Source: Butyricicoccus sp. Marseille-Q5471 (GTDB lineage: Bacteria > Bacillota > Clostridia > Oscillospirales > Butyricicoccaceae). Taken from it: a stretch of DNA of 64,000 nucleotides. Below, piece by piece: positions 16,098 through 63,733 of this stretch; position 1 is the first letter of the stretch, and every line of letters starts with the position of its first letter. The position numbers and the translations under genes are program-made. The notes beneath the pieces were generated by a model that had not been told where the DNA came from, searched no databases, and worked only from the letters and a program-made list of their open reading frames with translations. The stretch lies in NCBI RefSeq assembly GCF_951230135.1, contig NZ_CATNVC010000003.1, positions 62,001 to 126,000 of the forward strand. Direction: 5' to 3'.

Positions 16098-16131
16098 CTT
16101 TGCGTCCGGGGTCAGAATCTGACACCGGTAT

Positions 16132-17445: not shown

Positions 17446-17446
17446 G

Positions 17447-17868: not shown

Positions 17869-17871
17869 TTT

Positions 17872-19021: not shown

Positions 19022-19110
19022 ACGTCCAGAACCCGCTGTGTCTGCAACGAACATTCCGTCAAATGATTCCCCGATTAAATAACAACTTATGAAGGTATTA
19101 TTTTTAATTT

Positions 19111-19135
19111 TGCATGTCCCACGGTGGGACATGCA
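19111..19135. promoter_or_regulatory. 11-bp perfect palindrome, operator candidate
   Basis: TGCATGTCCCA-CGG-TGGGACATGCA is an 11+3+11 inverted repeat. A second palindrome, TTGTCA-A-TGACAA, follows close by (near 19147-19160). No T-tract follows on either strand, so a terminator is unlikely. The pair lies about 60-110 bp before the first signalling gene. Confidence 0.5.
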
Positions 19136-19221
19136 ATGTCTTTCATTATTTGTCAATGACAATGGCGGTGCGCATACCAAGGACGGCGCAGCGCAGGATT
19201 CATACTGTGGGGGGCACCAAT

Positions 19222-23013: not shown

Positions 23014-23150
23014 CCGCGCAATCCTCGTACAGCGGCAGCGCACTGCAGCCTGCCCGGCTACCGAATCTCTGCCAGCGAGCGGCATGACGCAACGGTATTC
23101 CTGCACTCAATAAGATGTTACAAAGCACCATACGGGCATGGAGGCAATAA

Positions 23151-27470: not shown

Positions 27471-27570
27471 CGGCGTTGCCATCACCTTGCACAAATCACG
27501 TCCGGCAGGACGGCTATCCCAATGAACAAATGACTCGCGAAGCGACTATGGCGATATCAGGAAGAATTTG

Positions 27571-27599
27571 TTGATTTTAGGAGAATATTCGTGTACAAT
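27571..27599 (+). promoter_or_regulatory. Promoter of the riboswitch-controlled surface gene
   Basis: TTGATT (27571-27576) and TACAAT (27594-27599) are separated by 17 bp. The predicted start near 27606 lies about 55 nt before the aptamer. The 469-bp gap between the kinase and surface genes holds only this promoter, the riboswitch and its terminator. Confidence 0.65.
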
Positions 27600-27659
27600 A
27601 AACAATAGCCGCGGGTGTATCACCCGTTGATGCCAAGCAAAGAGCAATCATTCCTACAA

Positions 27660-27750
27660 TTTCATAATTTAGCAAAGCTGTTTGAAAATCAGTGACGCAA
27701 AGCTATAGGGGCTTCTCCGAATAGGAATGCCAGCCAGTTGCAATATGTAA
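27660..27750 (+). ncRNA. Cyclic-di-GMP-I (GEMM) riboswitch aptamer
   Basis: The core matches the c-di-GMP-I consensus. There is a GCAAAG entry, a short hairpin with a GAAA loop (27673-27693), the invariant GACGCAAAGC (27694-27703), and a second hairpin containing TATAGGGGC and ending TGCCAGCCAGTTGC (27704-27741). A closing P1 helix pairs 27660-27666 with 27744-27750 (6 of 7 pairs). It lies inside an island of c-di-GMP enzymes, directly upstream of a surface-protein gene, a typical target of this riboswitch class. Confidence 0.88.
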
Positions 27751-27790
27751 CAGACTTTGCCACAGGTGGGGTCTGTTCTTTTTGTGTTTT
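27749..27790 (+). terminator. Riboswitch expression-platform terminator
   Basis: AACAGAC (27749-27755) pairs with GTCTGTT (27771-27777) around an inner CCAC/GTGG pairing, followed by CTTTTTGTGTTTT. CTGTT in the aptamer's GAAA hairpin (27678-27682) could alternatively pair with AACAG. That would make aptamer folding favour termination (an OFF switch), but this direction is only inferred. Confidence 0.75.
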
Positions 27791-27939
27791 GCTCTTTTGA
27801 AAAGCAACTGCCGTTTTACAATTTCGTCTTAGGGGAAGCGGCGTGTCACAGAATGGAATTTGTTCGGCGAGGAGGCTGATACAGTAAAATGTGCTTTAGC
27901 ACAACATTAAACAAATAGACCTATTAAACGAGAGAAAAA

Positions 27940-30696
27940 ATGAAAACAAAAGGACGAAGGCTTTTATCCATTGTCCTAACCATCTGTATGATGATTCCTC
28001 TGGTGCCGTCGTCCTTTGCGGTGTCGGCGGCAACCGGTTTGCACCTGATGAGCCGGTCAGCCGCCAGCAGATGGCCGCGTTTATGGCGCGGTACATCGAA
28101 TACTACACGGCAAAACACAAGGTGACCTTTGCCGGCACCGGCTCTGCCGCAGCCTTCAGCGATGCCGGCCAAATCGCCGAATACGCCGCCGGTGCCGTTA
28201 CGCTTTGCCGCTCCTACGGTCTCATCAACGGCAACGCCGATGGCAGTTTTGGCCCGAACGCGCTGTCCACCCGTGCTCAGGTCGCGGCAGTGGTTCACCG
28301 TCTGGCGCTGCTGCTGAGCACCGGCAAAACCGTCACCACACCCAGCAGCGGCGGCGGCAGTGTCAGCTCCTCCGTTTCCAACAGCGCCAATACCGCCGTC
28401 GGCTTTATCGAGGCTGCACAGAAGAGTGCGACAAATGTCACAGCAACGATTGAATCGACCAACAGCATCACAGTAAACGACGATATCTCGATTACCAATG
28501 ATGGCGTCCGCACTCTGACCCTGAATCTGGGCAGCGCCAGCATTGGGGACCTGACCGTCAATTCCACCGGCGCGGCACAAATCTACCTAAATGGTGCAAC
28601 GGCCTCAGTGTCCTCTCTGACGGTCAACGCGCCCAATGCCACCGTAACGAATCGTGTAACGGTGAACGGCTCAATCAATATTCATGCCGTATCTCAGAAC
28701 ACCTTTAATAATGATGCTCTCGTCAGCGCAACATCAATTTCCTGGGTGCAGGCGCACTGAATGATACAAGCGCAAATCCGGCTTCCGTTGTTGTGCGCAC
28801 CAATCAACTGGTGGCCGTGCGCGGCAACTCCACCGAAATCAATGTAACTGCGGATGGCGCTTCTCTCACACTCGCTACCACCGGGAGCGCTCCCACCATC
28901 ACCAGTTCGGCTAGCGGCGTATCACTGACTGTAAATACTGCCGCAGCTACCATCGGCGGCACGGCGGGGACGGTTACTGCAAATTCCTCTGCCCCGTCTC
29001 TGACGGTCAACGGTACTGTCGGAACTTTGAATGCCGGGATCTCCAATGGCGGCATTACCCTCAGCGGCGGCGGCGCGGTCAGCGATTTGACCGCGGGCGG
29101 CAATGTTACAATCTCCGCTGAGAGCACCGCGCTCACTGTCGCCACGATTAAGACCGCCGGCAGTGCCACCATCACTGCACCGAACAGCCAGATTGGGACT
29201 GTGGCGGTTGCGGCGGGTGGCACGCTGACACTGAACGCCAACGTGAATACCGTCACGACGCCAGCAGACGCTGAGGTTGCTATAGGCGAAAATCAAACCG
29301 TAAACACCGTCGAAGCAGGCGGTAATCTCACTTTGAGCGGCAGCGGTACCGTTGGCAGCATCGATGTAACAAAAACTGCAACGATCGCAGTCAGCGCCGG
29401 AGCTGCGGTTTCCGTCACCCAGATTACCGCGCCCGAGGGTGTAACCGTCACTACCACAGCAGCCCCCGTTACCGTCAAGGCTGTAAAACCCACCGGCGTC
29501 AGCTTTACGCCTCCCACCACCATCGGTGGGATGGGCACGATTACCGGCGTAACCGACAAAATGGAATACAAGTCGGTCGCCGCTGATTCTTGGACGTCTG
29601 TGGATGCCGACGCACCGGTCACCGCCAATGCGGGGATCTATCAGGTGCGCGTGAAGGCAACAGATACCGCACTGGCCAGTGAGGCCGTGACTGTCACCAT
29701 CCCTGCCGCTGTGGGTTTGAGTTCCGCCGCGATTCAGGGCACGCCCTGCGTGGGCCAGACCCTCACCGCCGCAGTCAATGCCGATGCCACCGGCACGCTG
29801 TCCTATGTGTGGAAGGCGGGCGGCGCTGAAATTACCGGCGCGACCGGGAAAACCTTTACCCTGACCGATGACCAGATTGGCCAAACCGTCACGGTGACCA
29901 TTTCCAACTATGGCGCAGAGGCTAGTCAACCAGCGAAGCTACCGCTGCTGTCACCGTGGACAAGACCGCGCTGACCAAGTTGATTGCCAATGGTACATGG
30001 ACGGGTACACTGTTTGCGGCGGTCGAAAATGCCGCAATCAAAAATCTGACCCTGAACGCCACCATCAACAATTCGTCCACCACTGCAAACATTGCCGGTA
30101 TCGCGGGCATTTCCAATGGTACGACTTATGAAAATGTGACGGTTACCGGATCCAACACCTCTTATCGGCCTTCCGGCATTACCTGCTACTCTGTGGACGA
30201 TAGCTTTCAGAGCTGCGACGTTTCCATGGCTTTGACAGCCCAATGCAAGAGCGGAAAATCGGCCATCGTGGGCGGTCTTGCCCAGCAAATCAGTGGAACC
30301 AGCGCAGACACTCCAGTGGTGATTGAGAATTGCCGCTATTCCGGCATAATTACCATCGACGCCGCCGCAGGCCCCAGTTCTGTGTGGGCCGGCGCAATGT
30401 ACGGCGGCACGTCCTATGAACAGGATTCGAGCGATCAATCAATTTATTTCCCGCTGACGGTGCAAGATTGCACATTCTCCGGCACGCTGAACATCAGCAA
30501 CGCCGGTGATACGAGTGTTGCAGCCTATGGCTCATGGGCAACGGAAACCTCCGGCTCTAAGACAGCGTATTTTGAAGGTCTGCTCGGCCGTGCGCACAAG
30601 GACCTTACGGTCACCGTAGCGCAGGGCGAAGACTCTAAGACGAGTGAGGCAGGTTCCCTGACGTACTCCAGCTCCGCAGCGCCTACTAACGAATAA
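27940..30696 (+). pseudogene. SLH-domain surface protein, interrupted by three frameshifts
   Basis: ATG 27940 begins a signal peptide (MKTKGRRLLSIVLTICMM, cleavage near VSAA). The frame then breaks three times. After about 28035 it shifts into an SLH domain (FAPDEPVSRQQMAAF, later YGLINGNADGSFGPN). Near 28730 it shifts into long Ser/Thr/Val-rich beta repeats, a bacterial Ig-like segment (GQTLTAAVNADATGTLSY) and more. Near 29935 it shifts into a final region (DKTALTKLIANGTWTG) that ends at 30696. Restoring single bases joins all parts. The product would be an S-layer-type adhesin under riboswitch control. Decay or sequence errors are both possible. Confidence 0.75.
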
Positions 30697-45758: not shown

Positions 45759-46574
45759 TTATTCGGCCAGAATGCGCTCAATCGCGGCAGCCACGCCCTC
45801 CTCGGCGTTGGTTTTGGTCGTGCGGCGGCAGGCGGCCTTGACCGCGTCCGTCGCGTTGCCCATTGCAATCGGCAGGGCGACCGCGCGGAGCATCTCCAAA
45901 TCGTTCTCGCTGTCCCCGATCGCCGCGGCGCGCGACAGACCGGTGCCCAACATACGGCACAGCATGCCAAGCGCCATGCCCTTGTCCGCAATGGGCGAGA
46001 TAATCTCCAGATTGTCGCTCGCTGACGACATAACACGCACACCGGGTATCTGCGTCAGCTGCTCGCGAGCGTTGCGGAGCATGAAATTGTCCCGGCTGCG
46101 CACGAAAATCTTGTCGATTGACAGGTGCTCGTTTGCGATATGCTCGGCCACCGAGGGCACAACCTGCTTGACCGCAAGATAGCCTTCGTTCGACTTGTAT
46201 TTGCCGAATTCCAGATCGTCATAGGGCGTGATGAGCAGCGTTTCCCCCGCATAGACCATGGCGGTCATGCCGACGCGCTCAACCACCGCTGCCGCGCGCA
46301 CGGCAGGCTCCCACGGCATCGAAATGCGCATGGTGCAGTTGCCGTATTTCGCCGAGGACAGCGTCGCCCCGCCCGAGGTGACCATCAGGTCGTCCGCCCC
46401 CATTTGCAGTGCAAACTCCCGCGCTTCCCCGCAGATGCGCCCGGTCGCGACGACGACATGCAAGCCGGCTGCCCGTGCCCGCGCGACGGCTCTGCGTGTT
46501 TCATCCGATACAACATTGCCCGGCGAGAGGGCCGTTCCGTCCAAATCGAGGGCGATTAGATCGATTTCTCTCAT
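45759..46574 (-). CDS. HAD-superfamily Cof-type phosphatase
   Basis: A 271-residue Cof/YidA-type hydrolase. It has motif I DLDGT (residues 10-14, nucleophile Asp), motif II region VVATGR, a Lys in the DKG segment, and motif IV GDSENDLEML (Mg2+ binding). It probably dephosphorylates a sugar phosphate or flavin; the substrate is not predictable. ATG 46574 gives better spacing from GGAG than ATG 46577. It is transcribed divergently from the phage head cassette. Confidence 0.88.
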   Translation of the reverse strand: MREIDLIALDLDGTALSPGNVVSDETRRAVARARAAGLHVVVATGRICGEAREFALQMGADDLMVTSGGATLSSAKYGNCTMRISMPWEPAVRAAAVVERVGMTAMVYAGETLLITPYDDLEFGKYKSNEGYLAVKQVVPSVAEHIANEHLSIDKIFVRSRDNFMLRNAREQLTQIPGVRVMSSASDNLEIISPIADKGMALGMLCRMLGTGLSRAAAIGDSENDLEMLRAVALPIAMGNATDAVKAACRRTTKTNAEEGVAAAIERILAE

Positions 46575-46610
46575 CATTAACTCCTTTTTTGTGTTTTTCC
46601 TTCTGTTATT

Positions 46611-46650: not shown

Positions 46651-46664
46651 CGAACATTTGTTCT
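46651..46664. promoter_or_regulatory. LexA-box-like palindrome before the phage head cassette
   Basis: CGAACATTTGTTCT fits the Firmicutes LexA consensus CGAAC-N4-GTTYC in 12 of 14 positions. Its core AACATTTGTT recurs on the minus strand at 63053-63063 in the lexA promoter. It lies 8 bp upstream of the -35 box at 46673, between two divergent promoters. Confidence 0.62.
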
Positions 46665-46672: not shown

Positions 46673-46701
46673 TTGACAAATTTCGGACCTGCGGCTATTC
46701 T
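46673..46701 (+). promoter_or_regulatory. Promoter of the phage head cassette
   Basis: TTGACA (46673-46678) and TATTCT (46696-46701) have 17 bp between them. The start near 46708 leaves a short leader before the GGAGGAG site at 46741. Confidence 0.75.
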
Positions 46702-46755: not shown

Positions 46756-46968
46756 TTGCGACATACAGAAGCCGACGCGGACGCACTCGTGCGGATGCTC
46801 TACGACATCGCCGAGGATGCGGAGGCCCCTGCGGCGAGCAGGCTGTCCGCGATCAAGGAGATTCTCGACCGCACGGTCGGCAAAGGAACGCTGCTGATTC
46901 CGGACGAGAGCGCGAGCGAGCAGCCGTTTCGCGTCGAGATCGAGGTTGTGGACTCCGACTGCGACTGA
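46756..46968 (+). CDS. Small terminase-like or DNA-packaging accessory protein (70 residues)
   Basis: A TTG start at 46756 lies nine bases after GGAGGAG (46741-46747). The protein begins MRHTEADADALVRMLYD and continues with a helical segment (APAASRLSAIKEILDRTVGKG) reminiscent of the helix-turn-helix neighbourhood of small terminase-type proteins. Its position directly before terL supports that role, but it is shorter than most small terminases. An alternative ATG at 46748 is in another frame and gives no sensible product. Confidence 0.5.
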   Translation: MRHTEADADALVRMLYDIAEDAEAPAASRLSAIKEILDRTVGKGTLLIPDESASEQPFRVEIEVVDSDCD

Positions 46969-46979
46969 CCGACCGGCAA

Positions 46980-48263
46980 ATGGCCTTTGCACAGTCGGAG
47001 GCGTTTGAAACGCTGTTCGGCGGCGCGGCAGGCGGCGGCAAGAGCCACGGACAATTGGTCGATGCACTGCTGTTCGCGCTGCGCTATCCGGGTTCGCGCC
47101 AGCTGATGCTGCGCCGGACGATGCCCGAGCTGGAACGCTCGCTCGTCCCCGCGTCGCTCAGGCTTTATCCGCAGGCGGTTGCAAGCTATAAGGTGAGCGA
47201 CCACCGCTGGGAGTTTAAGAACGGTTCGGTGCTCGAATTTGGCTACTGCGATGCGGAGAGCGATGTGACCCGCTATCAAAGCGCCGAATATGACGTATTG
47301 CGCTTTGACGAGCTGACACACTTCACCGAAAGCCAGTTCACCTATCTCATCTCCCGCGTGCGCGGGGCAAACGGCTACCCCAAGCAGGTCAAAAGCACAA
47401 CAAACCCCGGCGGCGTGGGACATGCCTGGGTGAAAGCGCGGTACATCGACCCGATGCCGCCCGACACCCCGACCGAATTCGATGGCGGCGCACGGCTCTT
47501 TCTGCCCGCCAAGCTGTCCGACAATCCGTTTCTGCGCCGCGCCGACCGCGATTATGAGAAGCGGCTGCGCCTGCTGTCCCCGAACGACCGCCGTGCCCTG
47601 CTCGACGGCGTTTGGGAGCTGGACGAGGGGCGGTATTTCGGCGAATTCTCCGTGCCGCTGCACGTGGTGCCGCCACACGCCATCCCGCGGAACTGGCGGC
47701 GGTATCTGACCATTGACTACGGTCTGGACATGCTTGCCGCGCTCTGGATTGCGCAGTCGCCCGGCGGACACAGCGTGGTTTACCGCGAGCTGTATCGGCC
47801 AAATCTGATTATCTCGGAAGCCGCGGTGCAGATTCTCGCGCAGGAGGCCGAAAACGAGGTGATTTATGCCCGTCTCGCCCCGCCCGACCTGTGGAATCGG
47901 CGACAGGAAACAGGAAAAAGCGCAGTCGAGCTGTTTGCGGAGAGCGGACTTGCCTTTGAAAAGAGCGACAACAACCGCGTTTCCGGCTGGCTCGCGCTGC
48001 ATGAGCTGCTCGCGCCCCGCGCGGACGAGCAGGGCATTCTGTGCCCAAAGCTCACCATTTTCGACACCTGCCGCAACCTGATTCGCACACTGCCCGCACT
48101 GCAGCACGACAAGCGCAATCCCTCGGACGTGTCCGGCTCCCCGCATGAGCTGACCCACGCGCCCGATGCGCTGCGCGGCTATGCGGCAACCGTGCGCGAG
48201 CCGCCCGCCGAAGCGCGTCCGACCGTGTACGACGGCGAAATCGGCGCGTTTCTCGGCTACTGA
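46980..48263 (+). CDS. Phage terminase large subunit
   Basis: A 427-residue motor-nuclease. It has Walker A GGAAGGGKS (residues 14-22), Walker B VLRFDELTHF (about 102-111), the coupling motif TNPGG, and an RNase H-type nuclease starting at LTIDYGLDM (about 243) and ending with the Asp of HAPDALRG. It cuts and pumps phage DNA into procapsids. Similarity to family members seems to extend upstream of ATG 46980 (LTDRQ-type residues in frame), where no ATG, GTG or TTG exists. The true start could therefore be non-canonical or coupled to the preceding gene. No disruption is seen. Confidence 0.9.
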   Translation: MAFAQSEAFETLFGGAAGGGKSHGQLVDALLFALRYPGSRQLMLRRTMPELERSLVPASLRLYPQAVASYKVSDHRWEFKNGSVLEFGYCDAESDVTRYQSAEYDVLRFDELTHFTESQFTYLISRVRGANGYPKQVKSTTNPGGVGHAWVKARYIDPMPPDTPTEFDGGARLFLPAKLSDNPFLRRADRDYEKRLRLLSPNDRRALLDGVWELDEGRYFGEFSVPLHVVPPHAIPRNWRRYLTIDYGLDMLAALWIAQSPGGHSVVYRELYRPNLIISEAAVQILAQEAENEVIYARLAPPDLWNRRQETGKSAVELFAESGLAFEKSDNNRVSGWLALHELLAPRADEQGILCPKLTIFDTCRNLIRTLPALQHDKRNPSDVSGSPHELTHAPDALRGYAATVREPPAEARPTVYDGEIGAFLGY

Positions 48264-48280
48264 ACAAGGAGGAAAGACCA

Positions 48281-48472
48281 TTGACCATCATTTTATACTG
48301 CCTTTGTGCAGTCGCGCTCGTTGTGACGGGTGCGGTTGTCTCAGGCGGGCTGCGGCTGCCGCGCAGGCGCGAGTCCACGGCGGAAGCTGCCGCCGCTGAC
48401 GACGATCAGCTGACGCGCGACATCCGCGCCATGCTCACCTACGGCGGAGAGGAGGAGACCGATGAAATTTGA
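48281..48472 (+). CDS. Small phage-cassette membrane protein (63 residues)
   Basis: A TTG start at 48281 follows AGGAGGAAAG. The product has an N-terminal hydrophobic helix (IILYCLCAVALVVTGAVVSGG), a basic RRR patch and an acidic tail ending GGEEETDEI. It overlaps the portal gene by 11 bp, so it is translationally linked to the packaging genes. It is too short and single-pass to call a holin with confidence, and its function is unknown. Confidence 0.6.
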   Translation: MTIILYCLCAVALVVTGAVVSGGLRLPRRRESTAEAAAADDDQLTRDIRAMLTYGGEEETDEI

Positions 48473-50006
48473 CCCGTCACCCGCCGCGCTCTGGCGCAAG
48501 TACGAGCGCGGACAGGACTACAAGCGCTCGATTGGTTTGTATGATCGCGTGCGCAAGAACGAAGCCTTCTACCTCGGCCGCCAGTGGGAGGGATTACGCG
48601 TGCAGTCCCTCGATCCGCTGATTTTCAATGTGCTGCGCCGCTGCGTCAACCTGTTCGTATCCATGCTGGTGTCGGACGACGTTGCAGTGCACGCCAAACC
48701 CTTCGACACGGACGCGGAAAGCCAAAAGACCGCCCGCGTGCTCGACCGCGCCTTTGCTTCGGCAATCGAGCGGTCGGGCGTGAAAACCCTCGGCCGCAGC
48801 CTGCTGAAAAACGCCTGCGTGGACGGCGACAGCTGCTTTTACATCCACTTTGACCCGAGTCTGGAGACCGGACAGGCGGTCAAGGGCGATTTGGCGGTCG
48901 AACTGATCGACTCCACCAACATTTATTTTGGCAACACCGCGTCCGACGAGGTGCAGAAGCAGCCTTACATCATCATTGCGATGCGCCGTGACGTGGACGA
49001 GGTGCGGCGCGAGGCCCGCGCAAACGGTCTGCCGCGCGACGAGGTGAACGCCATCGTGCCCGACGCAGAAGCCGAGCGCATGACCGTTTACGAGGAGGAC
49101 GACCGCCGCGTGACCGTGCTGCTGCACATGCGCAAGGTTGAAGGCGGCGTGGCCTTCTGCAAAACCACCCGCACTGCGGCCGTCATGCGCGAAAAAACGC
49201 TGCCCTACCGCCTGTACCCGGTCACCTATCTGTCCTGGAACCGCGTGCGCAACTCGTGCCACGGCGAAAGCCCCATTACCGAAGCCATCCCCAACCAGAT
49301 CGCGATTAACAAGCTGTATTCGATGTACGTGCAGTGCATCAAGCAGGTCGCGTTCCCCAAAATCGTATACGACATGACACGCTTCCCCGGCGGTTGGTCG
49401 AACGACGTGGGCAAGGCCGTCGGCATGCGCGGCAATCCGAACGAGGCCATCGCGACCGCGTTCCGTGCGCCGGAAATCTCGACGCAGGTACTCGGTCTGC
49501 TGAACCAGATGATGAAGGACACGATGGAGCTGATGGGTGCGTCCGAAGCCGCGCTCGGCACGGTTAAGGCGGAAAACACCTCGGCGATTGTGGCGGTGCA
49601 GAATGCGACTGCCGCGCCGATGGAGCTGACCCGCATGGAGTTTTACCGCTTCACCGAGGACTGGGCGCGCATCTTCCTCGACTTGATGGGCGCACATTAC
49701 GGCGTGCGCCGTCTCGCCGTGCCGAACGAAGCGGGTGAGGAACCCGAGATGCAGGCCTTTGACTTCGGCACGCTCGCCGGACTTGATCTGCGCTTACAGG
49801 TCGACGTGGGTGCGGCAAGCTACTGGTCTGAAACCATGCAGACGGTCACGAACGATCATCTGCTCGAAAGCGGCGTAATCTCCGACCCGCTCATCTATCT
49901 GGAAAACGTGCCTGACTATCAGGTGCGCGGCAAACACGACCTGCTGCACGCCCTGCGCGTACAGCGCGACACACAAAAGGAGGAACCCGTCCATGAACCA
50001 ACCTAA
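48462..50006 (+). CDS. Phage portal protein (P22/podovirus-like)
   Basis: A 514-residue protein of portal size. Features are an N-terminal YDRVRKNEAFYLGRQW segment, the conserved RNSCHGESPITEAIPNQIAINK core (about residues 260-285), and a stem/crown helix region (STQVLGLLNQMMKDTMELMGASEAALG). Portals form the dodecameric ring at one capsid vertex through which DNA passes. The layout and neighbours (terL, coat, connector, hub) fit the P22-like group. Its 5' end overlaps the small membrane gene and its 3' end overlaps the next gene by 14 bp. Confidence 0.85.
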   Translation: MKFDPSPAALWRKYERGQDYKRSIGLYDRVRKNEAFYLGRQWEGLRVQSLDPLIFNVLRRCVNLFVSMLVSDDVAVHAKPFDTDAESQKTARVLDRAFASAIERSGVKTLGRSLLKNACVDGDSCFYIHFDPSLETGQAVKGDLAVELIDSTNIYFGNTASDEVQKQPYIIIAMRRDVDEVRREARANGLPRDEVNAIVPDAEAERMTVYEEDDRRVTVLLHMRKVEGGVAFCKTTRTAAVMREKTLPYRLYPVTYLSWNRVRNSCHGESPITEAIPNQIAINKLYSMYVQCIKQVAFPKIVYDMTRFPGGWSNDVGKAVGMRGNPNEAIATAFRAPEISTQVLGLLNQMMKDTMELMGASEAALGTVKAENTSAIVAVQNATAAPMELTRMEFYRFTEDWARIFLDLMGAHYGVRRLAVPNEAGEEPEMQAFDFGTLAGLDLRLQVDVGAASYWSETMQTVTNDHLLESGVISDPLIYLENVPDYQVRGKHDLLHALRVQRDTQKEEPVHEPT

Positions 50007-50457
50007 CGAAGCACTGCTCTTCGCCGACCCGAACGCGCAGCAGCCGCCCGAGCAGCCCGCCGAACCGACGTATCCGGTCACTGTAGACGGCGAAACGCGC
50101 GAGCTGACTCTCAATGAGCTGACCGAAGCCGCCGCGCAGGGACTTTCCAAGCAGAACGCCGTCATCCGCCGCAACCGCGCGGCAAACGGTATGCCAAACG
50201 GTCAAATTTACGCATCCTTTGTCGAGGAATATCCTGACGTGCGCCCCGAGGACATCCCCGCACAGGTCTGGGAATGGGCACAGCAGGAGGGCTCGCTCGT
50301 CTCGGCGTTCCGCAAATGGGAGCTGCTCGAGCTGCGCGACGAGCTTGCCGCCCTTGAGCAGAACACGAAAAACCGCAAGCAGGCCGTCGGGCCGGCAAGC
50401 GGCGATGGCGAGCCTGCAGGCATCGACCCCGTCACCCTGGCCCTGCTCGGGAAGTAA
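49993..50457 (+). CDS. Putative capsid scaffolding protein
   Basis: A 154-residue protein. The first 30 residues are Pro/Gln-rich, a middle part (TVDGETRELTLNELTEAAAQGLSKQNAVIRR) resembles phage scaffold or minor-head starts, and a charged helix (RKWELLELRDELAALEQNTKNR) precedes a short C-terminal tail. Between portal and coat genes a scaffolding protein is expected, and the size and helix content fit, but sequence similarity is weak. Confidence 0.55.
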   Translation: MNQPNEALLFADPNAQQPPEQPAEPTYPVTVDGETRELTLNELTEAAAQGLSKQNAVIRRNRAANGMPNGQIYASFVEEYPDVRPEDIPAQVWEWAQQEGSLVSAFRKWELLELRDELAALEQNTKNRKQAVGPASGDGEPAGIDPVTLALLGK

Positions 50458-50491
50458 TTACAATTTATAATATTTAGGAGGAATTATACAT

Positions 50492-51514
50492 ATGGCTATC
50501 AATCTTGCAAGCAAATACTCTGACCAGATTGCCGAGGTATTCACCCGCTCGTCCTTTATCAAGGGCAAAACCGCGACGACCTTCGACCTGACGGGCGTCA
50601 AGACGCTCAAGGTGTACACACCCATCACCGTCGAGGAGGTCGATTACGACCGCGACGGCGGCCTTGCCCGCTACGGTGATGTGAGCGAAATGCAGGACGT
50701 GGTGCAGGAGCTGACCATGACGCAGGACAAGGCGTTCACGCTGACCATTGACAAGGGCAACAACCTCGACCAGAACCTCGTCAAGAACGCAGCCGACATG
50801 CTGCGCTTACAGCTCAACGAAAAATCCACCCCGACCGCCGATAAATACGCCTTTTCACGCTTTGTCACGATGGCAGGCACGCTGTGCGCCAGCGAAAAGC
50901 CGACCAAGGCCAACATCATCTCCAAAATCGCGGACGCATCACAGGCACTGGACGACGCGCTTGTGCCCGATGACAACCGCTATCTCTATCTGACGAGTGA
51001 AATGTACAAGCTGGTCTGCACCTCGGACGAGTTTTCCGGCGTGGACGTGCTCGCCCGCCAGTCCATCGCCAAGGGCGTGTGCGGCGAGGTGTTCGGCATG
51101 AACGTCGTGCGCGTGCCCAAGAGCTATCTGCCCTCCAACGTGTATTTTCTGGTGGCGCACAAGGATGCGGTGCTCATGCCGTACAAAATCGCGGACGCCA
51201 AGGTGCACGAGGATCCGGTCGGTGTGTCCGGTGCGCTGATCGAAGGCCGTCACTACTATGACGCCTACGTGCTCGGCGCGAAGTGCGGCGGCGTATACGC
51301 GCTGGTCGCCACTGGCGCCGTCTCGACCGCCCCGACCATCTCGAACAGCCAGATTACGGGCAGCGGCACCATCCGCTACACGCTCGACGGCACCGACCCG
51401 CGCTACTCGGATTCCGCCAAGGAATACGTTTCCGGCACGCTCACGCCCGAAACCGGTAAGTCCATCCGCGCCTACGCGGTGCAGACGGGCAAATACCCCT
51501 CTGTCGTCGCCTGA
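50492..51514 (+). CDS. Major capsid protein with C-terminal CHB_HEX-like domain
   Basis: A 340-residue protein. Residues 1-280 are consistent with the HK97/P22-type coat fold (LASKYSDQIAEVFTRSSF at the start, then ELTMTQDKAFTLTIDKGNN and SEMYKLVCTSDEF). Residues 285-340 form a separate beta domain with GTIRYTLDGTDPRYS, the pattern of chitobiase/HexA C-terminal Ig-like domains. That domain could decorate the particle surface and bind carbohydrate. AGGAGGAA precedes the ATG. It is the only obvious coat gene in the window. Confidence 0.82.
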   Translation: MAINLASKYSDQIAEVFTRSSFIKGKTATTFDLTGVKTLKVYTPITVEEVDYDRDGGLARYGDVSEMQDVVQELTMTQDKAFTLTIDKGNNLDQNLVKNAADMLRLQLNEKSTPTADKYAFSRFVTMAGTLCASEKPTKANIISKIADASQALDDALVPDDNRYLYLTSEMYKLVCTSDEFSGVDVLARQSIAKGVCGEVFGMNVVRVPKSYLPSNVYFLVAHKDAVLMPYKIADAKVHEDPVGVSGALIEGRHYYDAYVLGAKCGGVYALVATGAVSTAPTISNSQITGSGTIRYTLDGTDPRYSDSAKEYVSGTLTPETGKSIRAYAVQTGKYPSVVA

Positions 51515-51570
51515 TTCACGCTGCCGCGCGGCCGCGTTGCCGGCCGCGCACCTTTTAAAGGAGGTATTCC

Positions 51571-51939
51571 ATGACCGGAACCGAATGCTACGCCGCCGCC
51601 CTCGCCCTGCTGAGCGAAACCCGCGACAGCGGCGCTTATTATGAAACCTTTGCCGTGCCTGCCCTAAACCAGCTGCTGGCCAACTGCCTGCGCGAAATCA
51701 ACGCGCTGCGCGAGATGGACGGACAGCCGCCCTTTGCCGTCCCGCCGCGCATGACCGGACTCACCGAGCACATCCCGGCGGACGATGCACTCGTTGCCGA
51801 GTGTTTTCCCTACGGTCTGGCCGCGCTGCTCGTCGCAGAGGATGACAAGGACAAATTCAACTGGGCGGGCAGTGAATTTTCCTCTCGCCTGCTCGCGCAC
51901 TGTCCGGCGTGCATGACGGCGGTGCAGGAGATGATTTAA
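51571..51939 (+). CDS. Head-completion/connector protein
   Basis: A 122-residue mostly helical protein (YAAALALLSETRDSGAYYETFAVP, then LNQLLANCLREINALRE) placed between coat and hub genes. Size, position and helix content fit the adaptor proteins (gp4 of P22, gp6 of HK97) that bind below the portal. Its stop overlaps the next start (TAATG). Confidence 0.6.
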   Translation: MTGTECYAAALALLSETRDSGAYYETFAVPALNQLLANCLREINALREMDGQPPFAVPPRMTGLTEHIPADDALVAECFPYGLAALLVAEDDKDKFNWAGSEFSSRLLAHCPACMTAVQEMI

Positions 51940-53759
51940 TGAAGCCCTACCAGTTTCCGCAGACCGAAGCCGTGCAGCAGACCGTCGTGCGCAGCTTCGG
52001 CGGCGCGGATTTCCGCACCCATCCGACCAAGGTGTCGCTGTCCCGCTCGCCCGATCTCAAGAACCTCATTTGCGAGCAGAACGAGTTTCTGGTCAAGCGC
52101 ACCGGCTATCAGACGCAGGCGACCTTTAGCGGACCGATTTTCGGCCTGTTCGCCCTGCCCGACGGCACCGGCACGGTCGTCCACGCGGGTGAAGCGCTGC
52201 AATGCCGCCTGTGGGACGGCACAACGACCGAGCTCTGCATCGGTATGCAGCAGGATTTTTCGCAGTCCTTCACCATGAAGGGCGCACTCTACCTGCTCGA
52301 CGGGCTGACCTACCGCGTGGTGCGCCGCAACGAAGACGACACCGCGTGGGAAGCCGTTCCCGTCAACGAAACCGCGTTCGTGCCGACCACGACCATCTCC
52401 GCTGCCCCAACCGGCGGCGGCACCAGCTACGAAGCCGTTAACCTGCTCACGCCCAAGCGCATCAACACCTTTATCGGCAACGGCTCGGCCACGCAGTTTC
52501 AGGTGGACGCCAAGGAGCTTGACGACCAGCCAGTGACCGCGACCGTGAACGGCACGGCCGCGACTGTCTCCTCGGTCAACCGCGCGACCGGCATGGTCAC
52601 GCTGTCCGCCGCGCCCGCAAACGGCAACGGCCTTGCCAATGTTGCCATCACCTTTTCCAAAACCGTCGAGGGACATCTCGCGCGCATCAACAAATGCCGC
52701 TTTGCCGGTTTGTACGGCGGCAAAAACGACACGCGCGTCTTTCTCTCGGGCAATCCGGACGAGCCTGCCTGCGACTGGCAGAGCGGGCTGTACGATCCCA
52801 CCTATTTCCCCGACACCGGCTACACCCAAATGGGCACGGATGCGTCTGCGATTATGGGTTACCTCAAGCAGTACGAAAGCCAGATGATTGTCAAAGCAGG
52901 CGGTGCACAGGAGGCGACTAGCTTTCTGCGCACCTATCTGATGGCTGACGACGGCACGGCGCTCTATCCGCTCGGACAGGGCGCACAGGGCGAGGGCGCG
53001 ATAGCCCGCCGCAGCTTCGCGACACTGAATGATTTGCCGCTCTTTCTCTCGGCGCGGGGCGTGATGGGCGCATACGGCACGGCTGTTGCCGAACAGCGCA
53101 CGCTGCGCAACGTCTCCGAGGCCGTCAGTCCCCGCCTGTCTGCCGAGCCCGATCTCCAAAACGCCTGCGCCGTCGTGCACGAGGGCAAATACTATCTCGC
53201 GGTGGGCGGTCATGTCTACATCGCGGACGGCAGTCTGAGCGAAGCCGACGGTGCACCCGCGTGGTTTTACTGGGACAATGTGCCCGCACAGTGCCTTGCC
53301 GTGCTCGACGGCCGACTGTGGTTCGGCACGCAGGACGGACGGCTGTGCCGTTTTTGCCTTGCGGACGACCAGCACGCTTACCTCGACGACGGAAAGGCAA
53401 TCGACGCTTACTGGCGTACGCCCACCCTGCCGCTCGGGCAGTGGGCGCGGTTCAAGTCCATCCGCGATGTCATTCCGACGCTCATGCCCTATTCCCGCTC
53501 GGGCGCTACCGTGCGGTACGAGAACGAAAACGGCGTGCTGCTCGCACTTTCGCGGAACATGGATTTGTTTTCCTTCGAAACGCTAGATTTTTCGCGCCTT
53601 TCCTTCCGCTGCATGCCGGGCGCAATCAGCTACCGCACCCGCTGGCGGCAGCACAGGGTGCCGCAGTTTGCCGTGCGCATCGGCAACGACCGTCCGGACG
53701 AGCCGTTTGGCCTGCTCGCGCTGACCATCCTCTGGACAACGGGAAAAATCATTCACTAG
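51939..53759 (+). CDS. DNA-stabilisation/tail-hub protein (P22 gp10-like)
   Basis: A 606-residue beta-rich protein with repeated WD/propeller-like blades (for instance LFALPDGTGTVVHAG, LWFGTQDGRLCRF), as in the P22 gp10 and T7 gp12 class that plugs the portal vertex after packaging. It ends with TRWRQHRVPQFAVRIGNDRPDE. ATG 51939 overlaps the stop of the connector gene. It is the most distal structural gene that can be assigned; no tailspike, fibre or needle gene follows. Confidence 0.65.
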   Translation: MKPYQFPQTEAVQQTVVRSFGGADFRTHPTKVSLSRSPDLKNLICEQNEFLVKRTGYQTQATFSGPIFGLFALPDGTGTVVHAGEALQCRLWDGTTTELCIGMQQDFSQSFTMKGALYLLDGLTYRVVRRNEDDTAWEAVPVNETAFVPTTTISAAPTGGGTSYEAVNLLTPKRINTFIGNGSATQFQVDAKELDDQPVTATVNGTAATVSSVNRATGMVTLSAAPANGNGLANVAITFSKTVEGHLARINKCRFAGLYGGKNDTRVFLSGNPDEPACDWQSGLYDPTYFPDTGYTQMGTDASAIMGYLKQYESQMIVKAGGAQEATSFLRTYLMADDGTALYPLGQGAQGEGAIARRSFATLNDLPLFLSARGVMGAYGTAVAEQRTLRNVSEAVSPRLSAEPDLQNACAVVHEGKYYLAVGGHVYIADGSLSEADGAPAWFYWDNVPAQCLAVLDGRLWFGTQDGRLCRFCLADDQHAYLDDGKAIDAYWRTPTLPLGQWARFKSIRDVIPTLMPYSRSGATVRYENENGVLLALSRNMDLFSFETLDFSRLSFRCMPGAISYRTRWRQHRVPQFAVRIGNDRPDEPFGLLALTILWTTGKIIH

Positions 53760-53847
53760 CAGCAGGCGATATGCCTGTTTTCTTGTAGACTTATGGCATA
53801 TTGTGCTCTGTTTATACAAAGCCACCAAAAATGAAAGGAGGATTTCT

Positions 53848-54759
53848 ATGGCAACTTATCAAAAAGATTTTGACTACTCAGAAGCCATCGCAAACGAATC
53901 CGACGAAGGAAAACGACAGCAGTTGCTCGTCGAGCGTCAAAATAAGATTGACGCGGAAGGCCTCGCAGGCAAGGTTGCGGGCAACGACGCCGTCTCCACC
54001 TGGACGAGCGGCTACCGCCCCTATTCCGCATCGAGCACCAAATCCGGCGGGCTGACGGTCAGCGCCCTGTACGATGCGGCGGAGCAGTCTCGCCTCTCCC
54101 AATTTGAGGCTGCGCGCCGCCGCATTGCACGGCAGCTGAAAAGCAACCTGTCCTCGATTGACAACGACTACACCGCCGGCATGACGCAAACCGACATCAA
54201 CGCCCGCAAATCCGTCATTGGAAACGAGGAGAAGATGGCCGCGCTGGGACTCAATATGGGCAGCCGCTATTCCGATGCAACCTCGGGTGCGGCCGAAACC
54301 AGCCGCATCGCAGTCGATAACCAGTACCGCAGCGACCTGAACACCCTTGGCACAGCTCGTCTTTCCGCACGCGCCGCCGCGCAGCAAAGCGCGGACGACC
54401 AACTGGATTCCCTGTCCGGCAGCTACTATGCCGCATCGTCTGACGCGGCGCTTCAGCAGGCGCAGGCCGCGCTGCAGCAGTATAACGCCGACCGCGATTA
54501 CAGCCTGTCGGTCGCCGGTCTGTCCGGCTTTTTAAACGGCACGCCCACGCTTGCCTATCGGCAGTATCAGACCGATCAAACCACCGCGCAAACGCAGGCG
54601 GCCTACGAGCAGGCTGTCAACCGCTGGAAGACCTACGGCTACGTCGTTCAGGGCGACGCGGACATCCTCGGCGTACCATCCGGCACGCCGACCGCTGACG
54701 TGCGCTACAAAAACGCCACGCTCTCCCTCCAGCGCTGGAAGGCAGGCTACGGCTATTAA
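53848..54759 (+). CDS. Putative internal/ejection protein of the phage cassette
   Basis: A 303-residue Ala/Gln/Ser-rich helical protein. Coiled regions lie around residues 60-110 and 165-230 (AARRRIARQLKSN, ARAAAQQSADDQL, DAALQQAQAALQQYNADRDY), and the C-terminus resembles LysM-linker or ejection-protein tails. AAAGGAGG precedes ATG 53848. In podoviruses ejection proteins lie after the hub, which fits. No family is recognised with certainty. It ends at a strong hairpin that closes the cassette. Confidence 0.5.
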   Translation: MATYQKDFDYSEAIANESDEGKRQQLLVERQNKIDAEGLAGKVAGNDAVSTWTSGYRPYSASSTKSGGLTVSALYDAAEQSRLSQFEAARRRIARQLKSNLSSIDNDYTAGMTQTDINARKSVIGNEEKMAALGLNMGSRYSDATSGAAETSRIAVDNQYRSDLNTLGTARLSARAAAQQSADDQLDSLSGSYYAASSDAALQQAQAALQQYNADRDYSLSVAGLSGFLNGTPTLAYRQYQTDQTTAQTQAAYEQAVNRWKTYGYVVQGDADILGVPSGTPTADVRYKNATLSLQRWKAGYGY

Positions 54760-54760
54760 T

Positions 54761-54799
54761 CAAGCGAAGGGGGACGGGCATACCGTCCCCTTTCGCTTG
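54761..54799 (+). terminator. Hairpin closing the phage head cassette
   Basis: A 17-bp stem with one G-T pair (54761-54777 with 54783-54799). No T-run follows, so it may act as an RNA-end stabiliser rather than a full terminator. The remaining 300 bp to the next gene hold an inverted repeat and a promoter. Confidence 0.6.
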
Positions 54800-54978: not shown

Positions 54979-55100
54979 ATAAATGAACTAAAATTGGCCT
55001 TGTGAGGAATACTACCTCATGGATCTGCCATGTTCCGCATCGGCCGCATCCGCGCATTTCAGGCGCGAAGCTCCCGTACGATGCCAAAGGAGGAAATCTG

Positions 55101-56972
55101 ATGAACCCGCTTCTGACAAAATTCACTTTTTCTGACGAGTTGATCGACGTCATCGAAAACTGCAAGGGCGTTTCGGTGCCGACGACCAAGGCCGAGCTCT
55201 ATGATATGTGCTTCGGCCCCGACCACGAGGCTCGCTACAACGTTGTGTTCGACGTTGCCGGCAAGGGCCCTGTGAAGGAAGCCGACGTTACCCGCTGCAA
55301 GAACGGCGCTGCCGTCAACTATGTAGAGGACTACATGCGCCGCCGCGACCCCGACTGCATGCGCATCGCCGACGACGGCCCGACCGACAAGCCCCGTTTT
55401 GCCGACAAGTACGGCTATCCCTTCGAAAAGCTGCGCAAGGAAACCATGGACTGGTTCAAGACGCAGGAGTTGATCCTGATGCCCTTTAACTCGGGCGGTA
55501 ACGTCTACGGCTACGGCTCCTTGCTGGTCTGCCCGAAGAACGCTGCGTTCTTTGCCTTTGCACTGGCGCACCTGCAGGGCTTTGTCTCTGCCGAGGAGAC
55601 CGAAGGCTACGCACCCCGCGCAATCGTCTACGTTGCACCTCCCTTCCGCCACACCCACTTTGACGGCCGTCAGGTCTGCGTACACAACCGCTCGGCTGAG
55701 TGCCACGAGGTATTTTCCTATAACCTTTATCCCGGCCCGTCCGCGAAGAAGGGCGTTTACTCCGTGCTGCTCGACATCGGCGAGCACGAAGGCTGGGTCA
55801 CTGCGCACGCTTCCTGCGGCCGCATTGTCACCCCGTATGAGAACGAAATCGTCATCATGCACGAGGGCGCATCCGGCGGCGGCAAGAGCGAAATGCTGCA
55901 GGACATCTCCCGCCTGGAGGACGGCACCGTTCTGCTGTCCCACAACACGGTCACCGCTGAGGATACCATCATCAATATCGGTCAGACCTGCTCCATCGAG
56001 CCTGTTTGTGACGATATGGCGACCTGCTATTCTACGCTCCAGAACAACTCGGGCAAGCTTGTGCTTGTTGACGGCGAGGACGGCTGGTTCCTCCGTATGG
56101 ACGGCGTGACGCACTACGGCTGCGACCCGGTTTACGAGCGCATCTGCACCGAGCCCGACGAGCCGCTCTGCTTCTTCAACATGGAAGCACACCGCAACGC
56201 GACCTGCCTGATTTGGGAGCACACGCTTGACTCCAACGGTCAGCCCTGCCCCAACCCGCGCGCCATTGTACCGCGCGACAAGGTGCCGCACATCGTGCAC
56301 CAGCCGGTCGAGGTTGACGTACGCTCCTTCGGCGTTCGTATGCCCCCCTCCACTGCGGAGAACCCGAACTACGGCATTATGGGCATGCTGCACATCATCC
56401 CGCCTGCACTGGCGTGGCTGTGGCGTCTGGTTGCTCCCCGCGGCTTTAAGAACCCGTCCATCGTGGGCGGCGGCGAGCTCAAGAGCGAGGGCGTTGGCTC
56501 CTACTGGCCGTTTGCGACCGGTCTGCGCGTCAAGCAGGCAAACCTGCTGCTTGAGCAGATTACGAACTGCCCGAACACCCGCTATGTGCTCATCCCGAAC
56601 CAGCACATCGGTGTTTACAAGGTCGGCTTTGCCGCAGAGTGGATTTCCCGTGAATTCCTCGCACGCCACAACGGCCGCATCAAGCCTGAGCATCTCGAGC
56701 CGGCACGCTGCTCGCTGCTCGGCTACGCGCTCAAGGACATGAAGATCGACGGACAGAAGATCCGCTCCAAGTTCCTGCGCTGCGATACACAGGACCGTAT
56801 GGGCGAGGCAGGCTATGACGCCGGTGCCAAGATTCTGACCGATTTCTTCAAGAAGGAACTGCAGAAGTTCGATACGCCTGAGCTCAGCCCGCTCGGCAAG
56901 CAGATTATTGACGTCTGCATGAACGACGGCACGATGGAGGATTACCTCCGTCTGACCCCGATTAATCTGTAA
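55101..56972 (+). CDS. DUF4914-family protein with PEPCK-like P-loop kinase domain
   Basis: A 623-residue protein. A Walker A sequence of the PEPCK/HPr-kinase kind (EGASGGGKSEM, about residue 262) is followed by LVDGEDGWF and a long C-terminal domain. The overall order resembles DUF4914 proteins, which are distant relatives of phosphoenolpyruvate carboxykinase with unknown activity. The classical PEPCK oxaloacetate-binding signature is not obvious, so I do not call it pckA. ATG 55101 follows AAAGGAGG. It has its own promoter behind an inverted repeat and ends at a consensus terminator, so it is separate from the phage cassette. Confidence 0.65.
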   Translation: MNPLLTKFTFSDELIDVIENCKGVSVPTTKAELYDMCFGPDHEARYNVVFDVAGKGPVKEADVTRCKNGAAVNYVEDYMRRRDPDCMRIADDGPTDKPRFADKYGYPFEKLRKETMDWFKTQELILMPFNSGGNVYGYGSLLVCPKNAAFFAFALAHLQGFVSAEETEGYAPRAIVYVAPPFRHTHFDGRQVCVHNRSAECHEVFSYNLYPGPSAKKGVYSVLLDIGEHEGWVTAHASCGRIVTPYENEIVIMHEGASGGGKSEMLQDISRLEDGTVLLSHNTVTAEDTIINIGQTCSIEPVCDDMATCYSTLQNNSGKLVLVDGEDGWFLRMDGVTHYGCDPVYERICTEPDEPLCFFNMEAHRNATCLIWEHTLDSNGQPCPNPRAIVPRDKVPHIVHQPVEVDVRSFGVRMPPSTAENPNYGIMGMLHIIPPALAWLWRLVAPRGFKNPSIVGGGELKSEGVGSYWPFATGLRVKQANLLLEQITNCPNTRYVLIPNQHIGVYKVGFAAEWISREFLARHNGRIKPEHLEPARCSLLGYALKDMKIDGQKIRSKFLRCDTQDRMGEAGYDAGAKILTDFFKKELQKFDTPELSPLGKQIIDVCMNDGTMEDYLRLTPINL

Positions 56973-63099: not shown

Positions 63100-63113
63100 C
63101 GAACTAATGTTCC
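63100..63113. promoter_or_regulatory. LexA box 2 at the lexA start point
   Basis: CGAACTAATGTTCC matches CGAAC-N4-GTTYC and lies just behind the -10 box, consistent with autorepression. Confidence 0.75.
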
Positions 63114-63139: not shown

Positions 63140-63733
63140 ATGATGAAGAAAATCTCCGCCAAACAGCAGCGGATTCTCGATTTCATCAGCGAATTTTCGC
63201 TGGAACACGGCTATCCGCCCTCGGTGCGTGAAATCTGCGCCGAAATGGATTTGCGCTCCCCCTCAACCGTGCACGCGCACCTGAAAAAACTGCAGGAGGC
63301 CGGCTATCTGGAGGGTAGCGACCACAAATCCCGTGCCCTGTCTCCCACCGGCGGGCCATCCATGGTGCCGCGCGTGCCCATCCTCGGCCGAGTCACTGCC
63401 GGCATGCCCATCCTCGCCGTTGAGGAGCACATCGGCTACGTCCCGTTTGAGGGCGCGGTCGGCGGCGGCGAATACTACGCCCTGCGCATCCGCGGCGAGT
63501 CCATGATCGGCGTGGGCATAATGGACGGCGATCTCGTTATCGTGCGGCAGGATTTGTCCGCTCGAAACGGGGATATCGTCATCGCCCTGCTTGAAGATGA
63601 AGCCACCTGCAAAACCCTGTCCGTCACGTCGGACGGCGTGTGGCTGCTGCCCGAAAACCCCGCCTATCCCCCGATTGACGGCACCGGCTGCCAGATTCTT
63701 GGCGTGGTCAAGGCGGTTTACCGAGAATATTAA
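63140..63733 (+). CDS. lexA: SOS repressor LexA
   Basis: A 197-residue repressor. A winged-helix DNA-binding domain (about residues 1-65; PPSVREICAEMDLRSPSTVHAHL) precedes an S24-type self-cleavage domain. The cleavage site is A87-G88 (VTAGMP), with nucleophile S121 (RGESMIG) and base K158 (EATCKTL). After RecA activation it cleaves itself and frees SOS genes. GGAG stands 8 nt before ATG 63140. LexA-type boxes flank its own promoter, and a further one precedes the phage head cassette 16 kb away. Confidence 0.95.
   Translation: MMKKISAKQQRILDFISEFSLEHGYPPSVREICAEMDLRSPSTVHAHLKKLQEAGYLEGSDHKSRALSPTGGPSMVPRVPILGRVTAGMPILAVEEHIGYVPFEGAVGGGEYYALRIRGESMIGVGIMDGDLVIVRQDLSARNGDIVIALLEDEATCKTLSVTSDGVWLLPENPAYPPIDGTGCQILGVVKAVYREY

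Follow-up and report, generated by a model that had tools for sequence, protein, structure and literature searches.

A conserved podovirus-type head and packaging cassette behind a LexA-type operator in Agathobaculum, probably part of a gene-transfer-agent-like system

Introduction

PBSX of Bacillus subtilis, an element of the Bacillota, is SOS-induced, packages host DNA and has a full set of tail and lysis genes. Capsid-forming satellites of the cf-PICI type carry an integrase and attachment sites and vary in occupancy. The gene transfer agents (GTAs) of Alphaproteobacteria are siphovirus-like, are encoded by a larger cluster that includes tail genes and are controlled differently from the cassette described here. 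In the available text on RcGTA and other alphaproteobacterial GTAs, these are, like the present cassette, domesticated clusters of tailed-phage head genes that are inherited vertically, and RcGTA has a TerS without the N-terminal helix–turn–helix (PMC6854486; PMC9662315). The definition given in the latter source describes a GTA as composed of Caudoviricete-derived proteins, recognised by similarity or images, which form caudovirion-like particles, encapsidate mainly random host DNA and deliver it to other cells; its genome is wholly endogenised, often at several loci, its head is too small for the whole genome, and its inheritance is chiefly vertical, co-diversifying with the host (PMC9662315).

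FpGTA of Faecalibacterium prausnitzii is a podovirus-like GTA-like element published in January 2026 (PMC12946183). According to the available text of that paper, it is present in all twelve Faecalibacterium genomes that its authors examined, is without replication genes and comprises FpGTA I, with ten ORFs in 10.5 kb, and a second 5.5-kb operon for a fibre, a receptor-binding protein, a holin and an endolysin; its particles, its packed DNA of about 9 kb (8.4–8.9 kb) and its proteomics were demonstrated (PMC12946183). A search of open PubMed Central text for Agathobaculum together with prophage and capsid returned only a virome association study. Here, a head and packaging cassette recurring in Agathobaculum is described and compared with these systems.

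Results

The window, a stretch of 64,000 nucleotides from the genome of Butyricicoccus sp. Marseille-Q5471 (contig NZ_CATNVC010000003.1), which is counted here among the Agathobaculum genomes, contains nine closely packed genes on the + strand (46756–54759; 8.0 kb). All nine frames are open and housekeeping genes lie on both sides, namely an HAD phosphatase gene (45759–46577, −) and a DUF4914 gene (55092–56972, +; PF16260, E 0), as the original prediction from the letters of this DNA had stated. The prediction also took the base composition to be host-like, which is corrected by a cassette G+C content of 61.9% against 57.4 and 57.6% in the flanks. Because the same nine genes recur across the genus in identical order and strand, the cassette is more than a chance arrangement. 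The unit ends in a terminator-like hairpin (54761–54799, +; dG −34.4 kcal/mol, z −9.0); a strong T run is absent 3′ of it.

The TerS-like protein encoded by the first gene (46756–46968, +; 70 aa, TTG start) matches phrog_10899 weakly (E 9.5e-4) and has no helix–turn–helix match. Pfam searches returned no match up to E 0.1 for the five cassette TerS tested, and the four prophage TerS examined all matched HTH_23 (E 1.1e-6 to 7.1e-10); a short TerS is not diagnostic, because some viral contigs (L041 and L042) also have short TerS-like genes, identified by eye, 5′ of terL. The large terminase gene terL (46980–48263, +; 427 aa; phrog_979, E 1.8e-44) has intact Walker and nuclease motifs. Walker A is identical and the first nuclease motif is intact in 31 of 31 cassettes, and eight acidic residues are invariant across all 82 aligned TerL. 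Between terL and the portal gene lies a gene for a small protein (48281–48472, +; 63 aa), judged by eye only to be a putative membrane protein and without a family match in profile searches.

The P22-like portal (48462–50006, +; 514 aa) matches phrog_156 (E 7.3e-25) and P22_portal (PF16510, E 7.2e-14). The following scaffold-like protein (49993–50457, +; 154 aa), named from its place in the portal–coat interval, has phrog_14606 as its sole match (E 0.007). The major coat protein (50492–51514, +; 340 aa; phrog_422, E 4.9e-39) carries an Fn3_assoc/CHB_HEX_C_1 domain at its C-terminus; when the coat alignment was compared with PDB sequences, the best matches reached only E 0.2 and 0.3. Position and conservation suggest a connector or adaptor for the next product (51571–51939, +; 122 aa), which has no family match in profile searches. 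The hub/nozzle-like protein (51909–53759, +; start possibly ATG 51939) matches the virion structural protein family phrog_3287 (E 1.2e-25), and its N-terminus matches a tail tubular protein B, a podovirus nozzle protein (9k09_U, E 1.2e-4). The last product (53803–54759, +; start possibly ATG 53848) appears to be a long helical hairpin and may be an ejection protein; its sole match is DUF722 (E 0.055), and a BFVD fold search gave nothing at E ≤ 0.001 (best 2.1e-3). The hub and the last protein weakly resemble ejection parts.

Profile searches of the nine proteins found no integrase, repressor, holin, lysin, tail-fibre or receptor-binding gene in the cassette, and the first five were also absent, by eye, from the neighbouring ORFs. 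The integration, replication, lysis and tailspike genes of a P22-like prophage are likewise absent from the cassette and, by eye, from the neighbouring ORFs. These results bear out the original prediction of a set without integrase, repressor, holin or lysin; its further claim that tail genes are missing applies to the tail fibre but not fully to the hub, with its nozzle-like N-terminus.

A LexA/SOS-type operator, CGAACATTTGTTCT (46651–46664, +), lies upstream of a predicted sigma-A-type promoter of the cassette (TTGACA-17-TATTCT; 46673–46701, +). Among 19 aligned Agathobaculum upstream regions, the −10 element TATTCT is invariant, and GAACN4GTTC is perfect in 12 and has one mismatch in seven. 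The sole other perfect GAACN4GTTC in the window (63101–63112, +) precedes lexA, the predicted regulator (63140–63733, +; ORF with a PF01726 match at G000:C3:125143-125337). Of 16 genus genomes surveyed, 15 gave a member of the lexA family (G009 gave none), and a box of this kind precedes each of these 15 lexA genes as well as all 16 recA genes. Strain Marseille-Q5471 has 30 perfect GAACN4GTTC sites in its genome, versus 78 for a control pattern; those judged to lie between genes and to be followed by a gene of some size precede lexA, the cassette, spoIID (PF08486), a SorC-type regulator (Sugar-bind, PF04198) and a BrkB-like/DUF1273-like pair named by eye. Behind these perfect sites there was no lysis or tail gene that would mark another phage locus under a LexA-type box. 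Furthermore, a perfect box was found in none of nine Butyricicoccus cassette copies. Judged from these motifs, the cassette is apparently switched on by DNA damage under SOS control, with LexA presumably binding the operator.

Of 25 Agathobaculum genomes, 23 have a close copy of the cassette, that of strain Marseille-Q5471 included (G004 is represented by two contigs, L083 and L096); species with named carrier strains are A. desmolans, A. butyriciproducens and A. massiliense. It stands beside ftsK/uppP/HAD in 19 of the 19 Agathobaculum loci whose contig reaches the upstream flank. HAD adjoins DUF4914 in the two genomes without the cassette. In Intestinibacillus and G078, too, DUF4914 adjoins the cassette; it was not found within the downstream stretch examined at other Agathobaculum loci, and the downstream neighbour is variable within the genus. 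Coat matches revealed sister copies in 11 of the 12 genomes of the Butyricicoccus group (g10), in both of the Intestinibacillus group (g12) and in G078, of another genus, and the sister loci keep traces of one ancestral neighbourhood across genera.

The cassette tree shared 8 of 13 splits with the ftsK+HAD tree, with three strong conflicts, compared with a mean of 0.34 and a maximum of 4 common splits in 1000 label shuffles. The recA tree had only 2 of 9 splits in common with the cassette tree (nine strong conflicts) and 3 of 8 with the flank tree (two conflicts). Support for Agathobaculum in the TerL tree was 0.45 (midpoint re-rooted, support labels approximate). By the flank tree and the constant upstream flank, the cassette is a vertically inherited chromosomal fixture, with the recA tree running against this.

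The original prediction had named a complete prophage at the locus in relatives, relaxed dN/dS and frequent disruptions as signs against selection for making heads. The locus holds the bare cassette, and no complete prophage, in all 19 assessable Agathobaculum loci, which rules out a recent prophage deletion. Disruptions were observed only outside the genus, namely a decayed copy in Intestinibacillus massiliensis and a Butyricicoccus copy interrupted by a phage, though two genus members are without the cassette; because of these two members and the decayed Intestinibacillus copy, the cassette is dispensable. Median omega was 0.090 for coat, 0.098 for portal, 0.131 for terL and 0.129 for scaffold, against 0.177 for ftsK, 0.154 for uppP and 0.150 for HAD in the flanks. 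Coat, portal and terL are thus under stronger purifying selection than the flanking genes, the opposite of relaxed selection, which these values rule out for the core genes, whereas TerS (0.250) and the small protein (0.378, 20 genus sequences) evolve faster than the flanks. The low omega values and the absence of a complete prophage support the predicted selection for head making, as in a GTA or domesticated particle.

The medians refer to pairs with dS of 0.05–1, to tblastn-aligned ranges instead of whole genes and to 20–24 sequences per core gene; the pairs kept were 265/276 for coat, 248/253 for portal, 152/190 for terL, 203/253 for scaffold, 166/253 for hub, 153/253 for connector, 58/231 for the last protein, 153/171 for TerS, 165/190 for the small protein, 163/171 for ftsK, 130/136 for uppP and 81/136 for HAD. 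Within the aligned ranges, eight of the nine genes have no internal stop, and the single stop of the ninth precedes its start codon.

The genome of strain Marseille-Q5471 also has an apparently complete podovirus-type prophage (G000:C1, L088/L089/L097), in which terL, portal, scaffold, coat and hub are homologous to those of the cassette and identically ordered (coat 48–51% and terL 48–49% identical). Unlike the cassette, it has an integrase, a repressor, a collagen-like fibre, a holin, an amidase and a longer TerS with a helix–turn–helix; the first five rule it out as another such cassette, and this relative shows what the cassette lost. Holin family PF05105 occurs in no more than 11 of the 25 genus genomes, so that the cassette has no conserved holin partner from that family. 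In 19 of the 25, a cysteine-synthase-like gene has a conserved orphan endolysin gene next to it, which is a candidate second locus and has no LexA-type box.

Discussion

In gene content the cassette resembles FpGTA, as the available text describes it: both have a core operon that encodes TerL, portal, scaffold, coat and podovirus-type proteins and a TerS in which no DNA-binding domain is obvious. Its length of 8.0 kb is close to the 8.4–8.9 kb packed by FpGTA; it differs in its nine genes, its LexA-type box and the lack of any second operon found (PMC12946183). Loss of the TerS helix–turn–helix is reported for both RcGTA and FpGTA, and the cassette TerS is alike. The cassette is a new variant, and GTA-like systems of a similar kind are already known; of the undescribed system for which it was originally a candidate, the variant stands as new, with FpGTA already published with a core operon of the same kind. 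With regard to the GTA definition, TerL, portal, coat and hub are similar to Caudoviricete proteins, and the genes are endogenised at a fixed chromosomal locus at which no integrase was seen. Inheritance is mostly vertical by the flank tree and the constant upstream flank, with the recA tree against it, and the TerS without a helix–turn–helix match bears on random host cargo only indirectly.

We propose that the cassette is probably the core operon of a domesticated, SOS-controlled, podovirus-type GTA-like system, whose particles would most likely carry the cell's own DNA and not a virus. DNA damage would inactivate LexA and derepress the single promoter, and the nine proteins would be made. 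The coat and scaffold may assemble the head on the portal, and TerL, together with a TerS without a site-specific DNA-binding domain, may fill it with largely non-specific chromosomal DNA. The adaptor, the nozzle-like hub and the helical, ejection-protein-like last product would close the vertex, and release ahead of delivery would depend on lysis from elsewhere: cell death, a resident prophage or the orphan endolysin, which is not linked to the cassette. Several observations count against a GTA-like system: the cassette is without a holin, endolysin, fibre or receptor-binding gene and without a conserved PF05105 partner, the orphan endolysin has no LexA-type box and the nine Butyricicoccus copies no perfect one, a short TerS is not diagnostic, the recA tree conflicts, TerS and the small protein evolve fast, the cassette is dispensable and its downstream neighbour varies.

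The SOS-type control and the lack of a tail fibre or receptor-binding gene would also suit PBSX-like particles, that is, SOS-induced heads that pack host DNA without delivering it and benefit the cell by killing or another particle effect. PBSX itself has a full tail and lysis set, neither of which is in the cassette, so a killing device made from the cassette would be without its targeting part; with weakly ejection-like features in the hub and last protein, we consider this explanation unlikely. In its favour, the available text of PMC12946183 treats PBSX as a GTA-like element that does not inject. It is quite improbable that the cassette serves as an anti-phage module, in which related podoviruses, on infection, would have their assembly poisoned or diverted by the coat, portal or terminase made in the SOS response: the retained packaging functions, among them the TerL nuclease motifs and the nozzle-like hub, go beyond the needs of interference, and identity to the resident phage proteins is only about 50%, even if a prophage with homologous head genes in the genome and strong cassette conservation agree with such a role.

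A capsid-forming satellite or mobile element packing its own DNA could have such a compact head and packaging set, as these satellites do, but no integrase, replication or excision gene was seen, and an upstream flank constant in 19 of 19 loci and a cassette carried by 23 of the 25 genus genomes, always at one locus wherever this could be assessed, are unlike a mobile island; for the missing integrase and the fixed occupancy we reject this very improbable reading. A decaying prophage remnant without function is strongly disfavoured, to the point of being barely credible: omega of 0.09–0.13, frames intact across 20–24 sequences per core gene and the conserved operator outweigh the two genus members without the cassette and the decayed copy in I. 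massiliensis.

Beyond the probable GTA-like core operon, a joint reading is possible though doubtful. The cassette may belong to an old host-kept packaging system found across much of the order of Agathobaculum, with FpGTA as one member; it may have been domesticated in Butyricicoccaceae before three to four genera split, come under LexA control in one branch, be released by the dispersed orphan endolysin and itself be attacked by phages, whose integration into the coat gene switches the cassette off. The order-wide part of this reading draws on terL genes of the cassette's family, which are mostly single-copy, often in host-like surroundings and sometimes in terS–terL pairs apart from other recognised head genes. 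The cassette is a small, genus-wide and cultivable test case for a minimal GTA and could be used to test whether packaging becomes non-specific when TerS loses its DNA-binding domain. If the proposed GTA-like system is real, common butyrate-producing gut bacteria would answer DNA damage with DNA-filled particles, and stress would be directly tied to gene exchange in the gut.

Results

The genome (2.94 Mb, 43 contigs, 99.8% complete) that holds the window on its contig C3 was assigned to Agathobaculum (Butyricicoccaceae in NCBI) from named records holding the same loci. Nine genes, all on the plus strand, lie between a HAD phosphatase gene (minus) and a DUF4914 gene (plus), and encode a TerS-like protein (start 46756), TerL (46980), a small protein (48281), a portal (48462), a scaffold-like protein (49993), a coat (50492–51514), a connector-like protein (51571), a hub (51909), and a last protein (53803–54759). 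A promoter (46673–46701) precedes them and a strong hairpin (54761–54799; dG −34.4, z −9.0) follows. None of the nine is an integrase, repressor, replication, holin, lysin, or fibre gene. The coat C-terminus is an Fn3_assoc/CHB_HEX_C_1 domain, which is possibly surface-exposed on the head. The G+C content of the cassette is 61.9%, versus 57.4–57.6% in the flanks. Elsewhere in the window, positions 15000–28000, after a tRNA cluster (13768–14386), have lower G+C (39.6–54.8% per kb) and hold two very large proteins (19114–27470) whose starts, by eye, resemble response regulators.

The cassette is inherited and not of recent acquisition. The coat occurs at 86–91% identity in 22 of the 24 other Agathobaculum genomes, with all nine genes found save where a contig ends. 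The upstream flank was ftsK with uppP and/or HAD in 19 of 19 loci reaching that side (18 fetched plus the window; four other cassette-bearing genomes, with short contigs, are left out of this count). In the window, in both Intestinibacillus copies, and in genome G078, the gene after the cassette is DUF4914, which was not found in the downstream stretches fetched for other Agathobaculum loci; the conserved flank is therefore the upstream one only. Median identities to the window were 89 for coat, 82 for terL, and 82 for portal, and 74 for HAD, 74 for ftsK, and 76 for uppP. In the two genomes without the cassette, G010 and G024, HAD adjoins DUF4914, whose orientation is reversed relative to the window. 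Across 16 species, the terL, portal, coat, and hub tree shared 8 of 13 splits with the ftsK and HAD tree (1000 label shuffles: mean 0.34, maximum 4), and the three strong conflicts all concerned the placing of genomes G018 and G019. The cassette matched the recA tree poorly (12 species; 2 of 9 splits, nine strong conflicts); the flank shared 3 of 8 splits with recA, with two conflicts, making recA alone a weak yardstick here.

Nei–Gojobori estimates show that the cassette is under selection, with median dN/dS of 0.090 for coat, 0.098 for portal, 0.129 for scaffold, 0.131 for terL, 0.153 for hub, 0.190 for connector, 0.218 for the last protein, 0.250 for TerS, and 0.378 for the small protein; flank genes gave 0.150–0.177.

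Counting split and partial copies, close coat matches (62–80%) occurred in 11 of 12 genomes of the Butyricicoccus group (identified by named records), both Intestinibacillus genomes, and one of seven genomes of group g9 (G078). In the re-rooted TerL tree, the cassette copies of the four genera, together with two viral-database contigs that fall inside Butyricicoccus, formed one group separate from prophages (support 0.97). In Butyricicoccus, the cassette usually has as neighbours a GntR/ABC pair (named by eye) and a pair made up of an Na/H-exchanger and a Clp-ATPase. Intestinibacillus has the GntR/ABC pair close to HAD, and its exchanger is found past DUF4914. These shared neighbours suggest that both neighbourhoods derive from one ancestral neighbourhood. 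The Intestinibacillus massiliensis copy (L130:8376–9357) is decayed, its coat being split over two frames and its last gene truncated.

Upstream of terS, CGAACATTTGTTCT is, together with the −10 box, among the best-conserved stretches, and this region matches the LexA-type box GAACN4GTTC perfectly in 12 of 19 copies and with one mismatch in seven. The box merges into the −35 box in most species and lies 8 bases ahead of it in the window. The same kind of box precedes lexA in 15 of 15 cases (13 perfect, two with one mismatch) and recA in 16 of 16 (one mismatch). The only two perfect boxes in the window are those of the cassette and of lexA itself, and genome-wide there are 30, against 78 matches to a control pattern. 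A perfect box also precedes the cassette in the three Intestinibacillus/G078 copies, but was absent from all nine Butyricicoccus copies and from 14 further regions upstream of terL genes of the same family. From these matches, we infer that LexA would bind the cassette's box.

No lysis gene is linked to the cassette. In 19 of 25 Agathobaculum genomes, the present one included (L342:9126–9620, contig C9; other loci among L312–L338), an Amidase_2 gene stands next to a cysteine-synthase-like gene, and in four more a similar gene occupies another position. The protein, leaderless by eye, is 44–45% identical to endolysins of the g9 clusters; the present copy has only 164 aa, 54% identical to a 240-aa reference, to which some others show 48–60% identity. 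The two cassette-less genomes have the cysteine-synthase-like gene (87%) and no such endolysin beside it, a co-absence counting as one event because the regions compared between these two genomes are nearly identical. No LexA-type box was found at the Amidase_2 gene; upstream lies an inverted repeat, conserved for the most part, which reads GATTGACCAAATTGTGTCAATC in several species. This gene may be regarded as a candidate release enzyme, nothing more.

Discussion

A prophage of the cassette's type (coat 48–51%, terL 48–49% identity) lies on contig C1 of the same genome; it encodes a serine integrase, repressor, collagen-like fibre, SLH/S8 protein, holin, and amidase. The functions that the cassette appears to have lost are those seen in this prophage, and other genera show in-between states. 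Two g9 loci (L134 and L136; partly also L091 and L137) share a location whose stand-alone head cluster includes a holin and Amidase_2 endolysin, L136 additionally having a beta-helix tailspike-like gene; no integrase was seen near the g9 clusters (these four loci and L135), which are perhaps a fuller gene transfer agent (GTA)-like cluster. A cluster found in genomes of group g4 includes a collagen-like fibre. TerL relatives (E 1e-60 or better) occur in at least 165 of 394 genomes of the order, mostly one per genome, and outside the close cassettes are about 40–61% identical among the matches listed. Several of 20 fetched order-level terL regions sit among host-like genes, including L284–L286 from another family, where terL has a short upstream frame and blastp recognised no portal, coat, or other head gene in the 20 kb fetched.

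The packaging cassette is real, conserved, under selection, and preceded by a LexA-type box, and is probably the core of a GTA-like system that would form particles, take up random cargo, and deliver it. Set beside FpGTA, the podovirus-like GTA-like element of Faecalibacterium (PMC12946183), by description, it matches the FpGTA core in kind. Novel features of the present case are its hosts, an operator of the LexA type, a smaller set of genes, a vertical history that spans several genera, and a phage insertion into the coat gene; no earlier report of such a system in Agathobaculum was found in the open full-text literature.

That insertion, an element encoding a large, 477-aa serine recombinase (Resolvase 2.5e-39; phrog_95 integrase 4.7e-119), lies after about codon 83–86 of coat in one Butyricicoccus-group genome, G071 (L128:8069–9536 and L127:10550–20000), and two viral-database contigs (L023:3559–5273; L024:4537–6251). 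The G071 element is likely a prophage because it carries a phage lysozyme gene. The coat gene of the cassette thus seems to be an attachment site, and, if so, insertion would switch the cassette off.
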